Assembly: GCA_016215705.1 (NCBI GenBank)
Contig: JACRIR010000142.1
Coordinates: forward strand, 1 to 8,289
From: Candidatus Poribacteria bacterium
GTDB lineage: Bacteria; Abyssobacteria; SURF-5
Direction: 5' to 3'
Length of the DNA: 8,289 nucleotides
This document shows, one piece after another, positions 3,273 through 8,289 of the stretch. A program made the position numbers and the translations under genes. Position 1 is the first letter of the stretch. Every line of letters begins with the position of its first letter. Below the pieces are notes generated by a model, which worked only from the letters and a program-made list of their open reading frames with translations, was not told where the DNA came from and did no database searches.

Positions 3273-3301
3273 TTGACAAATGGGTGTATGCAGTATAAAC
3301 T
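3273..3301 (+). promoter_or_regulatory. Strong sigma70-type promoter ahead of the structured RNA
   Basis: A perfect -35 box TTGACA (3273-3278) is followed by overlapping -10 candidates: TATAAA (3294-3299, 5/6, 15-bp spacer) or TAAACT (3296-3301, 4/6, 17-bp spacer). Transcription would begin at about 3306-3308. This is the best promoter match in the window. It lies in otherwise empty DNA, 135-140 nt upstream of the end of an intrinsic terminator, implying a short transcript. A second TATAAA at 3310-3315 lacks its own -35. Confidence 0.65.
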
Positions 3302-3306
3302 GATTC

Positions 3307-3437
3307 GGCTATAAAAGAATTAGATTCATGAGCTTTTCTTATCGTCGGAGCGCTGCAGATGACGCGGAGGGAAACGAAGAAAAGCAGTTAGAAGCTGTCT
3401 CTCTCCCCGAGCGGGGGAGGGCGACGGCTTTTTTGTT
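3307..3437 (+). ncRNA. Predicted short structured RNA (small RNA or terminating leader)
   Basis: A strong promoter (3273-3301) and a strong intrinsic terminator (3392-3437) bracket about 130 nt. A perfect 9-bp helix is visible: GCTTTTCTT (3332-3340) with AAGAAAAGC (3377-3385). It encloses a 4-bp CGTC/GACG helix (3343-3346 with 3361-3364) whose loop contains GGAGCGCTGCAGAT, and a purine-rich segment CGGAGGGAAACG (3365-3376). A competing hairpin, CAGTT (3385-3389) with AGCTG (3393-3397), would overlap the 5' arm of the terminator and could act as an antiterminator. This is the topology of a transcriptional riboswitch or attenuator for the protease gene 213 nt downstream, or of a free-standing sRNA. 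I recognise no known RNA family. All folding is by eye. Confidence 0.5.
3392..3437 (+). terminator. Intrinsic terminator of the predicted short RNA
   Basis: The 5' arm 3392-3408 pairs with 3414-3430. The inner stem CTCCCC/GGGGAG (3403-3408 with 3414-3419) has a GAGCG loop. It extends through a U-G wobble and a C-G pair, one T/C mismatch (3400/3422), and the outer stem AGCTGTC/GACGGCT with one wobble. The 3' arm runs straight into six T (3429-3434) and further T at 3436-3438. No coding region of credible quality precedes it, so it most likely ends the RNA started at about 3307. Confidence 0.8.
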
Positions 3438-3649
3438 TGTCCGTGCTGCGTTTTCACAGATAAGATGGCCTCGTATATGCAAGTAGATTTGCACCCGCAC
3501 ATTTGAGGAATAGATTTGGGAAGGGGATTTCTTGTTTCGCGTATTATGACGCATATTTATGATTAATTCAGATGACGAGGGCATAGCGAAAAGAATCCAG
3601 TGGCGTGGGGCAAAGCCGAACCACAACGAGAGTGAAGGGAGCCGTCACA
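3438..3649 (+). other. Untranslated region between the terminator and the protease gene
   Basis: These 212 bp have no credible gene. A weak promoter-like pair, TTGTTT (3532-3537) and TATTTA (3554-3559, 16-bp spacer), could give the protease its own start. Two small hairpins are visible: TGCAA/TTGCA (3478-3482 with 3489-3493), and GTGG/CCAC (3600-3603 with 3621-3624) enclosing GGC/GCC. If the upstream promoter is used instead, protease expression would need read-through of the 3392-3437 terminator. Confidence 0.35.
3635..3641 (+). promoter_or_regulatory. Ribosome binding site of the protease gene
   Basis: AAGGGAG at 3635-3641 sits 8 nt before the ATG at 3650. The residues that follow form a textbook signal peptide, so both lines of evidence agree on this start. 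Confidence 0.85.
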
Positions 3650-3742
3650 ATGTTCAAGGATTCGACATCCAAGAGATTGCGGTTGATGTTGTTGTTGGTG
3701 CTTCTTGCTTTCATCTTTTGTGGTTCACAATCAGCTTTCGGC
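3650..3742 (+). other. Signal peptide of the M6 protease
   Basis: The n-region has K3, K8, R9 and R11. The hydrophobic core runs from about L12 to F23 (LMLLLVLLAFIF). A plausible signal peptidase I site follows A29-F30-G31, before MPPHPD. C24 lacks a proper lipobox (IFC context), so a lipoprotein is unlikely. Confidence 0.85.
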
Positions 3743-6700
3743 ATGCCGCCTCATCCGGATCTCAAGAAGCAATTCAAGGAAAAGAAGAAGCCTATTCCGG
3801 CTTTCATTCGTAATCCCGAGATTCTCAGGCAAAGAGGAATCGACAATCCTGCGCCGAGGCCCGGGCTGCGCCAGAGGATTTTGCAAGATGAGCCCGCACA
3901 AGGACCGTCGGGGAGTTTCAGAGCCCTTGCCCTGCTCGTCGACTTTTCCGATAGAACCTCGCAGGTCTCAGCGAGCTACTTTGACACCCTGATTTTTGCC
4001 AGCACCGGCAGTACTGTGAGGAGTTATTACAACGAGGTATCCTACGGGACCCTCACCATAGTCACAGTCAACCTGCCGAGCACAACCGGCTGGTTGAGGG
4101 CGCCGCAGACATACAGCTATTACGTGAATGGACAGAATGGTCTTGGGACGTACCCTCAAAATGCACAAAAGCTTGTTGAGGACGCAGTCGATGCGGCTAA
4201 CTCGGTCGTGAATTACTCCCTATACGACAATGACGCAAACGGTTACGTGGACGCCCTCTTCGTGGTGCATGCCGGTCCCGGCGCAGAGTACACCGGCAGT
4301 TTCAATGATATCTGGTCGCACCAATGGAGCATTTCTCCCCGGCTCAGAGACGGGGTATACATATCCACCTATTCGATGGAACCCGAGTATTGGCTGAGCC
4401 CAAATGACATGACGAGCGGAGTCTTCTGTCACGAGCTCGGCCACGTGTTCGGTCTGCCTGACCTGTACGACACAGATGACAGCTCGGAAGGCATAGGAAA
4501 CTGGAGCCTTATGGCTGGGGGGAGTTGGAACGGTGTCAGGGGCAATTCTCCCGCCCATTTGGATGCATGGAGTCGAATCTATCTGGATTTTGCCTCCACG
4601 ACGCTTGTCAGCGCTGATTCGATAGGCCTTAGCATCACCGCAGTGGAGACCACACCGCAGATTTATTATCTTTGGGACTGCGACCCCACAAGTGACGAGT
4701 ACTTTCTTCTTGAAAACCGCCAGCCTGTCGGATTTGACGCCGCTCTGCCGGGCTCGGGCCTTTTGATCTGGCATATTGACGAGGGCATGACCACAAATAG
4801 GAACGAATGTCTCGACCATCAGAACTGCAACTGCGTTTCGCATTATAAAGTAGCTTTGGAGCAAGCAGACGGCGCACTAGATTTGGAATATGGCCTTGAC
4901 CGCGGCGATAGCGGCGACCCGTTCCCGGGTTCGACGAACAAGCGGGCGTTTGACCTCAGCACTACTCCCAATCCTGGATCCTATGCAAGTTGCGATTCGA
5001 ATATCGAAATCAGCAACATCAGCAACTCTGCTTCTACGATGACAGTCGACGTGCATACGTGTACGGCGCCGAACGGCCTTTTCTTCCCATATCTCGAGTT
5101 TCCGGTGGCGTCGAAGCCTGTGGCTGTGGCAATAGGCGATGTCAACAACGATGCAAGAAACGACGTTGTCGTGACAACGACATACGAAAACGATCCGGCG
5201 AATGACCACCGCATCCATGTCTTCCTGCAGGATGCATCTGGCAGTCTTCAAACACCTGCGGTCAAGTATTTGATAGACCCGGCCTTCTTTACTTATCATT
5301 CGCAATCTGTCGACATAGGCGATCTCAACAACGACGGCAGAAGCGATGTTGTAGTGAGCGCACAAGACAGCGTAGGCGTCTTCCATCAAAACGGCGCGGG
5401 TACGCTAGAACCAATGGTTAGCTACCCCTGCGGGCATTCAAGCATCCGTAATGCATACCAGGTGCGAATCGGCGACTTTAACAACGATGGTTTGCTCGAT
5501 GTTGTATCCATCGATGAAGGGTTTGAGTCGAACGATGCCGATGTATTTCTCCAGAACGCGGGCGGTACGTTGGACGAGCCCGTCACTTATGTAGTCGAGC
5601 ACGGTGGCTACGACGATTTGGACGTTGGCGACGTGAATGGCGATGGGCTTCAGGACATTATCGTCATGAGCGGATATGGGGGCTATAGCACACTTGGCAT
5701 ACTGCTCCAGAACGCTTCGGGAACATTGGACCCAGCGGTTTACTACGATCTTCCGGTCGCCGCGAATGCACGTGGAGTGGCAGTGGGTGACATCGACGGC
5801 GACACGCTCGATGATGTTGCCGTAACTTACGGAGTTCCGACCGAGTACGTAGGAGTCTTTTACCAAAACATCACAGGCACGCTCGATCCGGCCATCTCTT
5901 ACCCCACTATGAATGTTTCCGATGCAGTGGAGACGGAGGACCTTGACAACGACCTCTTAAACGACATCGTCGTCGCTCATAGCGCTTGGGTATATCTGGG
6001 AGTGTACCGCCACGACGTCGCCGGGGAGCTGTTGCCGGAAGAGTATTATCCCATTCCAGCCGCGAATGGCACCAGTCCACATGGCATGGCGATTGGAGAC
6101 TTAAACAGCGATGGCGGAAACGATGTTGCGATTGTCAGTGATCTCAGCGGTTTGACGGTACTTTACAATACTTCTCCCGTATCGCCGACAATTGCGCTTA
6201 GTACGTTCGCGCTTTCAAGCAGTACCCCATTGCTGCAAAACGCGCCCAGCCAGACGTTCGAGGTCTGGAATTCCGGAGCGGGAACGCTGTCGTACACGGT
6301 AAGCTGGAATGTCGGCTTTTTCTCCTGCGTTCCCATAACCGGAACTTCTACCGGTGAACATGACACAATCACGGTCAATTACAACTCCGCCAACCTTTCG
6401 GCTGGAACTTATTCCGGCACAATCACCATCACTGATTCAAACGCATTAAATAATCCTCAAACGATTCTTGTTACTCTCACTATCCTTCAATCGACGATCG
6501 CGCGTAGTCCGACCTCTCTGACCAACACGTGCTCGGTTGGATACAACGCGCCGAACCAAAGCTTCGAGGTATGGAATTCCGGAGGCGCCACGTTGTCGTA
6601 CACGATTAGCGACAACGTAACGTGGCTGGCATGCGCGCCGACAACGGGGACATCCACCGGCGAACACGACACTATCACCGTGACCTATAGCACCTCCGCG

Positions 6701-8289
6701 CTTGCAAGGGGAACCTATACGGGCACAATCACAATAATGAGCGATTCAGCCGCGAGCAATTCGCCGCAGACCATTCCGGTGACTTTAACGGTGGTTTCGC
6801 CGACGATTGCGCGCAGTCCGACGACGCTCACGAACACGTGTCTTCTGGCGACGAACGCTTCGAGCCAGACGTTCGATGTCTGGAATTCCGGCGCAGGGAT
6901 ATTGTCGTATTCCATAAGCGATAATGCCGATTGGCTATCATGCAGTCCTGCGAGCGGCACGTCACTTACGAACGAGCACGACACGATAGCTGTCAATTAT
7001 GCCACTGCATCGCTGCCGGTGGGGACGCATTCAGCTACCATAACGATCAGTGATCCGAATGCGACCAATAACCCACTGACGATATCGGTAAATCTGACGG
7101 TGTGGAAGCCGACCATCACCTTGAGCACAAATGCTCTCTCGAAGACCGTTCGGATGGGTTTGAACGCTTCGAATCAGACCTTCCAGGTTCGTAACAGCGG
7201 CACGGGCACGCTCTCGTACACGATAAGCGACAATGCCGACTGGCTGGCGTGTACCCCTGCGAGCGGGACGTCGACCACCGAGAACGACACGATTTCCGTC
7301 GTCTACACTACCTATGCGCTGGCGGTAGGCAACTATTCGGCAACCATCACGGTCGCTGACGCGAATGCGTCGAACAACCCGCAGACGATATCTGTGAGCC
7401 TGGAGGTCGTGCAGCCGACAATAAGTCGGAATCCGACCACGATTGCTGCCGCATGCGCGCCGGGTGAGAATGCAGTGAGCCAGAGCTTCGAGGTGTGGAA
7501 CACAGGGGTTGGCACGTTGTCGTACACGATAACCGACAATTCCACATGGATGTCGTGCAGTCCCACTAGCGGCGCTTCCCTGGGCGAGCATGACACTATT
7601 ACCATAATCTATGACACTTCTGCGGTTGCCGTCGGCAAGTACACAGGGACAATCACTATCAGTGATCCGAATGCGACTAATACGCCGCAGACAATAGTGG
7701 TGACGTTGACCGTAGGCCCGACGATATCGCGCAATCCGACTACGCTTACGAACAACTCGCAAACCGGGCAAGACGCCGCTGCCCAGAGTTTCGAGGTATG
7801 GAACTCGGGGATGGGGACTCTCGCGTACACGATTACCAGTGACGTTGCGTGGCTAACGTGCAATCCTGTAAGCGGGACATCCACAGGCGAGCATGACACG
7901 CTTGCGGTCAGTTACGGCACGGCGGCGCTGTTAAGGGGAACGTACCGCGCGACGATCACGATCAGTTCTGCGAGCGCGACGAACACGCCGCAGACAATTC
8001 CGGTGACGTTGACGGTAATTCAGCCGACGATTGCGCGCAGTCCGACGACGCTCACGAACACGTGTCTCCTGGCGACGAACGCCGCGAGCCAGACGTTCGA
8101 CGTCTGGAATTCGGGTTCGGGGACGTTATCGTACGCGATAAGCGACAATGCCGATTGGCTATCATGCAGTCCTGCGAGCGGCACGTCACTTACGAACGAG
8201 CACGATGTGATCACTGTCAGCTATGCCACTGCATCGCTGCCGGTGGGTGCGCATTCGGCCATAATAACGATCAGCGATCCGAATTCGAC
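3650..8289 (+). CDS. Secreted M6-family metalloprotease with FG-GAP propeller and BACON-like repeats (3' partial)
   Basis: One frame stays open from the ATG to the window end: 1,546 complete codons, no stop. Residues 1-31 are a signal peptide and about 32-84 a charged pro-region. Residues about 85-470 are an M6 (immune inhibitor A-type) zinc peptidase. Zinc ligands H261, H265 and D271 and catalytic E262 lie in HELGHVFGLPD, with M288 in NWSLMAGGSW as a likely Met-turn. The family segments GLLIWHIDEG, HYKVALEQADG and RGDSGDPFPGS follow, with C387, C393 and C395 nearby. Residues about 478-843 carry seven FG-GAP/VCBS calcium-site repeats, and about 846 onward at least seven BACON-like Ig-fold repeats. 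The enzyme should be exported and cleave proteins outside the cell, with the repeats giving adhesion or polymer binding. The C-terminus is missing, so any sorting signal (PEP-CTERM, type IX secretion or other) and the final repeat number are unknown. M6 assignment is firm, but substrate is not predictable. It may be regulated by the upstream terminating RNA. Confidence 0.95.
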   Translation, partial: MFKDSTSKRLRLMLLLVLLAFIFCGSQSAFGMPPHPDLKKQFKEKKKPIPAFIRNPEILRQRGIDNPAPRPGLRQRILQDEPAQGPSGSFRALALLVDFSDRTSQVSASYFDTLIFASTGSTVRSYYNEVSYGTLTIVTVNLPSTTGWLRAPQTYSYYVNGQNGLGTYPQNAQKLVEDAVDAANSVVNYSLYDNDANGYVDALFVVHAGPGAEYTGSFNDIWSHQWSISPRLRDGVYISTYSMEPEYWLSPNDMTSGVFCHELGHVFGLPDLYDTDDSSEGIGNWSLMAGGSWNGVRGNSPAHLDAWSRIYLDFASTTLVSADSIGLSITAVETTPQIYYLWDCDPTSDEYFLLENRQPVGFDAALPGSGLLIWHIDEGMTTNRNECLDHQNCNCVSHYKVALEQADGALDLEYGLDRGDSGDPFPGSTNKRAFDLSTTPNPGSYASCDSNIEISNISNSASTMTVDVHTCTAPNGLFFPYLEFPVASKPVAVAIGDVNNDARNDVVVTTTYENDPANDHRIHVFLQDASGSLQTPAVKYLIDPAFFTYHSQSVDIGDLNNDGRSDVVVSAQDSVGVFHQNGAGTLEPMVSYPCGHSSIRNAYQVRIGDFNNDGLLDVVSIDEGFESNDADVFLQNAGGTLDEPVTYVVEHGGYDDLDVGDVNGDGLQDIIVMSGYGGYSTLGILLQNASGTLDPAVYYDLPVAANARGVAVGDIDGDTLDDVAVTYGVPTEYVGVFYQNITGTLDPAISYPTMNVSDAVETEDLDNDLLNDIVVAHSAWVYLGVYRHDVAGELLPEEYYPIPAANGTSPHGMAIGDLNSDGGNDVAIVSDLSGLTVLYNTSPVSPTIALSTFALSSSTPLLQNAPSQTFEVWNSGAGTLSYTVSWNVGFFSCVPITGTSTGEHDTITVNYNSANLSAGTYSGTITITDSNALNNPQTILVTLTILQSTIARSPTSLTNTCSVGYNAPNQSFEVWNSGGATLSYTISDNVTWLACAPTTGTSTGEHDTITVTYSTSALARGTYTGTITIMSDSAASNSPQTIPVTLTVVSPTIARSPTTLTNTCLLATNASSQTFDVWNSGAGILSYSISDNADWLSCSPASGTSLTNEHDTIAVNYATASLPVGTHSATITISDPNATNNPLTISVNLTVWKPTITLSTNALSKTVRMGLNASNQTFQVRNSGTGTLSYTISDNADWLACTPASGTSTTENDTISVVYTTYALAVGNYSATITVADANASNNPQTISVSLEVVQPTISRNPTTIAAACAPGENAVSQSFEVWNTGVGTLSYTITDNSTWMSCSPTSGASLGEHDTITIIYDTSAVAVGKYTGTITISDPNATNTPQTIVVTLTVGPTISRNPTTLTNNSQTGQDAAAQSFEVWNSGMGTLAYTITSDVAWLTCNPVSGTSTGEHDTLAVSYGTAALLRGTYRATITISSASATNTPQTIPVTLTVIQPTIARSPTTLTNTCLLATNAASQTFDVWNSGSGTLSYAISDNADWLSCSPASGTSLTNEHDVITVSYATASLPVGAHSAIITISDPNS
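5081..6178 (+). repeat. Seven FG-GAP/VCBS repeats (seven-bladed beta-propeller)
   Basis: Calcium-loop motifs of the form GDxNxDGxxD occur seven times, with their first Asp at residues 497, 558, 609, 661, 714, 764 and 817. The spacings are 61, 51, 52, 53, 50 and 53 residues. Examples are GDLNNDGRSDVVV and GDFNNDGLLDVV. Most are followed by VFxQNxxGTLxPxVxY, the inter-blade signature of VCBS-type propellers. Seven units are the number needed to close an integrin-alpha-like propeller. The sixth motif is degenerate (EDLDNDLLND, lacking the leading Gly), so that calcium site may be weak. The role is probably structural or adhesive. Confidence 0.9.
6800..7065 (+). repeat. BACON unit 3, near-identical partner of 8024-8289
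   Basis: Compared base by base with 8024-8289 this unit differs at about 30 of 266 positions (about 89% identity). Exact runs are 44 nt (6800-6843 with 8024-8067) and 59 nt (6923-6981 with 8147-8205). Other units are visibly more diverged from each other. The two copies lie 1,224 nt apart, which is four repeat units. Confidence 0.9.
8024..8289 (+). repeat. BACON unit 7 (truncated by window), near-identical partner of 6800-7065
   Basis: This unit has the same gene position and frame as unit 3, with most differences at third codon positions or a few substitutions. It is cut after about 88 residues. The preceding unit 6 likewise resembles unit 2 most closely: only these two carry an Arg before GTY and both end PQTIPVTLTV. 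This supports duplication of a block of four units. Confidence 0.85.

Follow-up and report, generated by a model that had tools for sequence, protein, structure and literature searches.

A candidate attenuator leader upstream of an M6 metalloprotease gene in a Candidatus Poribacteria genome

The protease locus

Here, we analysed a window of 8,289 bases, a single contig from the 5.47 Mb draft genome of an uncultured Candidatus Poribacteria bacterium. It carries an oxidoreductase gene, a gene for an Fe-S protein and the start of a protease gene, and the element described below sits in the 700-nt gap upstream of the latter. The following features were assigned:

91-1950: aldehyde ferredoxin oxidoreductase-type protein
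2240-2947: Fe-S protein with similarity to part of QueG or of reductive dehalogenases
3273-3301, plus strand: predicted sigma-70-type promoter, a sequence match with a presumed start near 3307
3332-3385, plus strand: helix P1 and its loop, 3332-3340 pairing with 3377-3385 over exactly 9 bp
3347-3391, plus strand: candidate leader ORF with GGAG (3347-3350), 8 nt, ATG (3359), the peptide MTRRETKKSS and the stop TAG (3389-3391)
3366-3406, plus strand: possible antiterminator, 3366-3372 with 3400-3406, enclosing 3385-3389/3393-3397 (together -10.6 kcal/mol)
3391-3437, plus strand: intrinsic terminator with arms 3391-3408 and 3414-3431, an internal mismatch, then a T-run
3650-8287, plus strand: M6 (immune inhibitor A-like) metalloprotease with FG-GAP and BACON repeats, the presumed target gene, open at the contig end

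The M6 metalloprotease is probably a large, secreted protein. Its ATG at 3650 is preceded by AAGGGAG, which reads as a Shine-Dalgarno-like motif, and lies about 213 nt 3' of the terminator, the distance given in the original prediction. A series of BACON-type repeats (six stretches in Pfam) occupies the tail of the protein at 6180-8289. Upstream, CACGAATGGCACGAATGAAATTCGAATGCCACGAATGA words are repeated at 1961-2005, 3' of the oxidoreductase gene, as a simple intergenic repeat. The perfect palindrome TGTAGGGGCGGTTCGCGAACCGCCCCTACA at 2052-2081, followed by TTTTT, has a similar hairpin at L180 2508 and is probably a dispersed repeat and not a dedicated terminator.

The promoter and the terminator bracket a noncoding unit of 131 nt (3307-3437), and both are above chance. 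The -35 hexamer is an exact TTGACA (3273-3278), and two -10 hexamers come into question, namely TATAAA at 3294-3299 (5/6, spacer 15) or TAAACT at 3296-3301 (4/6, spacer 17). When the intergenic region was shuffled, 0.5% of the resulting sequences had an exact TTGACA together with a -10 matching in 5/6 positions or more (p ~0.005). The terminator has a G+C-rich hairpin directly before its T-run, as is characteristic of intrinsic terminators, and its fold of -30.3 kcal/mol was reached by 0 of 1000 shuffles. The hairpin has one exact copy in the genome, and we thus rejected the idea of a dispersed repeat. Between promoter and terminator, a perfect inverted repeat of at least 9 bp such as P1 was found in 0.9% of leader shuffles (p ~0.009). 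The p-values for promoter, helix and terminator apply to a site preselected as the most striking one of the window and are uncorrected for this choice; in a looser scan of the whole window, promoter-like and terminator-like sites were not in excess. The perfect -35 with its good -10, the exact 9-bp helix and the strong terminator with T-run, all named in the original prediction, are hence present as described.

Structure of the leader

The original prediction went further and saw a structured RNA that switches between termination and read-through. Once the terminator is taken away, the remaining leader (3307-3390) is no more stably folded than its shuffles (p 0.37), and the term 'structured RNA' therefore does not extend beyond the terminator. 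The z-score of the whole RNA (-2.5) is owed mostly to the terminator, while the 66-nt core reaches z = -1.07. An inner CGTC/GACG hairpin can pair as proposed, but contributes -1.6 kcal/mol and is not part of the minimum-energy fold. Likewise, the proposed competing 5-bp helix 3385-3389/3393-3397 exists, but has -1.4 kcal/mol alone; it nests in the larger helix listed above as possible antiterminator, with which it reaches -10.6 kcal/mol.

P1 and this alternative helix are mutually exclusive unless a pseudoknot forms. In equilibrium folds of growing transcripts, both were about equally populated when the transcript ended at 3410 (0.45 for P1 and 0.50 for the alternative helix), and from a transcript end at 3416-3419 onward, P1 and terminator dominated the equilibrium folds. 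In these models, the folding course fits that expected of an attenuator, yet the antiterminator pairing equals chance: pairing of the leader with the 5' arm of the terminator was not stronger than in shuffled leaders (p 0.42 and 0.51). Of the proposed switch, the attenuator-like anatomy of promoter, leader and terminator thus stands, whereas the switching structure cannot be told from chance.

The candidate leader ORF has 10 codons and ends, with its stop, right at the edge of the 5' terminator arm. A comparable Shine-Dalgarno motif with ORF arises in 8% of shuffles, and the frame contains no run of codons for one amino acid, which makes a classic starvation sensor unlikely. Two other frames were rejected, a 52-aa frame running through the terminator (3328-3486; no Shine-Dalgarno motif, no family, no relative) and a minus-strand frame at 3339-3626 without family match.

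Relatives and comparable units

In Rfam, riboswitches and T-box included, the element found no match at gathering level, in line with the original prediction, which could not match it to a known family; below threshold, the terminator matched a viral hairpin model best. 6S RNA (RF00013) was considered and rejected, as it has no match in the window and the 6S RNA of the genome lies on contig C80. DNA searches found the element once in its own genome and nothing convincing elsewhere, and phage and plasmid records yielded no relative. A covariance model built from the single sequence (R1) detected no credible second copy in 290 diverse genomes, family members included, nor in two family members searched with laxer filters. 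Applied to the surroundings of 40 M6-protease loci of other lineages, R1 returned no credible relative and one match at E = 3. Weak matches were rejected as chance: three lie inside an adenylate-kinase-like gene (L082), an NAD-synthetase-like gene (L083) and a short ORF (L229), one falls in a CGCAGAGG-type repeat of low complexity and differs in its loop (L231), and one covers the loop only (L230, E 4).

The family member G001 possesses a protease ortholog (64% identity) that is shorter and has a different neighbourhood. Its short upstream region has a TATAAT box immediately ahead of the gene and no such leader. The ortholog ends at 603 residues, apparently without the BACON-type tail. Conservation in relatives, which the original prediction had named as its own test, was hence not found, either as a homolog of the element or as a leader of the G001 ortholog. 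As no relatives were found, there is nothing to covary and no conserved aptamer. Within the sequences searched, the element has thus far been met in one genome only and fits no known class. A study of candidate leaders from intergenic searches (PMC8632094) reports regions that mostly carry an intrinsic terminator but no sign of more elaborate folding, and that may comprise just the platform of a switch; compared to those candidates, the element of the window is a single example, which makes the comparative step impossible.

But, how common are strong terminators with a strong promoter in this organism? In about 1.78 of the 5.47 Mb, roughly a third of the genome, we searched the sequence outside long reading frames for strong hairpins followed by a T-run and set aside a family of GGGGACA-type repeats. 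Twelve non-repeat, largely noncoding hairpins of at least -20 kcal/mol in strength preceded a T-run in the 1.78 Mb. A promoter matching the consensus in at least 11/12 positions was present within 300 nt upstream of three of the 12, compared to 20 of 3000 random stretches of 270 nt. Two weaker hairpins (L115 and L156) also had 11/12 promoters. The three promoter-bearing hairpins are the element of the window and the following two:

L121 4244-4580, contig C38, minus strand: complete aromatic-amino-acid leader-peptide attenuator with TTGACA-16-TATAAT, the leader peptide MSSARKYFRFYFSWWYSVPARLG and a terminator, before DAHP synthase
L197 2252-2524, contig C113, minus strand: cobalamin riboswitch (RF00174, 113 bits) with terminator, before cobU (adenosylcobinamide kinase)

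To judge from their sequences, both are genuine attenuators. The leader peptide of the first is rich in Phe, Tyr and Trp codons, and this unit has no Rfam family match. The element of the window resembles aromatic-type leader-peptide attenuators, such as the one at L121 4367-4580, in its consensus promoter, a leader of 130-170 nt, a strong terminator and a same-strand gene about 100-200 nt on; in contrast, its ORF lacks a regulatory codon run and has a stop abutting the terminator. When compared to shuffles, antiterminator pairing reached p 0.02 in the aromatic unit, but p 0.42 in the window. With the cobalamin riboswitch, the element shares the TTGACA promoter, leader, terminator and gene order, whereas a recognisable aptamer is missing from the window. 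Both units lie on the strand of their gene, and the distances from terminator to gene (about 120 and 150 nt in the two units, 213 nt in the window) are similar.

The GGGGACA-type hairpins set aside above number 19 in 1.36 Mb. The dispersed repeat (e.g. TCGGGGACACGATGCGACATCGTGTCCCCGATTTTC) occurs at L087, L090, L109, L116, L125, L128 and others in the same genome and resembles a REP or a small mobile element, and it mimics terminators.

Interpretation of the unit

An own promoter and a terminator followed by a same-strand gene constitute the layout of an attenuator, and this layout is present. We consider the chances about even that the M6 protease transcript has 3307-3437 as its 5' leader and that this leader acts as a transcription attenuator. 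In the default state, P1 would form along with the terminator, and transcription would end near 3437. If P1 were disrupted, 3366-3372 could pair with the 5' arm of the terminator with 3385-3389/3393-3397 nested inside, and once this antiterminator had formed, the polymerase would read into the protease gene. As trigger, we favour translation of the candidate leader ORF (3359-3391): in passing through it, a ribosome would unwind P1 and, on reaching the stop codon, mask the 5' arm of the terminator, whereby translation could promote read-through. The leader is thus possibly linked to translation of the 10-codon ORF. What we observe is the match to a promoter, the complementarity of the P1 strands, the terminator, the order of the genes and the use of this layout by two recognisable attenuators in the genome; transcription itself, the switch, its trigger and its target we infer. 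Counting against an attenuator are the chance-level antiterminator, leader fold and ORF, the G001 ortholog without leader and an analogy that comprises two units.

The main rival is an independent sRNA gene (about 131 nt) that has a promoter and a terminator of its own and whose product acts in trans; the protease would then be transcribed from a separate downstream promoter. We regard this as possible, though rather unlikely. The bracketing of a 131-nt noncoding unit would fit an sRNA equally, as would the TATAAT box just upstream of the leaderless G001 protease. In favour of the attenuator, a scan of 3440-3650 gave no promoter of at least 9/12 that passed the scan rule; a poor 9/12 match (TTCACA-15-TATATG, 3453-3479) past the terminator may be counted in favour of the sRNA. 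However, the element is distinct from 6S RNA, which the genome encodes at another locus, and no homolog turned up in the two family members. Above all, the genome's two comparable units are cis leaders, namely attenuators on the strand of their gene and similarly far from it. They are our main ground for preferring an attenuator over a free sRNA, by an analogy that draws on two units in about a third of the genome. Overall, we expect a regulatory leader of ordinary look, or an sRNA, with the leader as the most likely reading.

Less probable still, the hairpin could be an ordinary terminator that ends stray transcription before the protease gene, with promoter match and P1 due to chance or irrelevant. 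Such a view would account for the terminator as the only overwhelmingly non-random part, for leader fold, antiterminator and ORF within chance, and for the lack of detected conservation. It leaves aside a promoter sequence that matches strongly and lies at a suitable distance (p ~0.005) and the fact that, at this hairpin strength, promoter pairing otherwise occurs only at two attenuators in the sampled part of the genome. A new ligand-binding riboswitch class controlling the secreted protease is highly improbable: the anatomy permits a choice between P1, antiterminator and terminator and Rfam holds no match, but there is no second example, hence no conserved aptamer or covariation, and the fold is not above shuffles.

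We are also very doubtful about a broader scenario, in which a new riboswitch or attenuator class of one sparsely sampled lineage senses a nutrient or translation signal and gates a giant secreted protease by the choice between P1, antiterminator and terminator. The novelty proposed in the original prediction, a new kind of RNA switch, is unsupported beyond the anatomy, as the extra structure is at chance level and no relative was found.

If the attenuator reading is true, a large protease would be one further attenuation-controlled gene. Strong terminators look rare in this genome and, when paired with a strong promoter, would seem to mark regulated leaders. While the element alone is a single unclassified case, the pairing of strong promoter and strong terminator could serve as a filter for leaders in little-known lineages. 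Elsewhere in the genome, two matches to RF01055 (Moco/tungsten riboswitch) stand in tandem on contig C74 (L158 8956-9081 and 9235-9359), on the same strand and about 150 nt apart, a pair that could be of interest.
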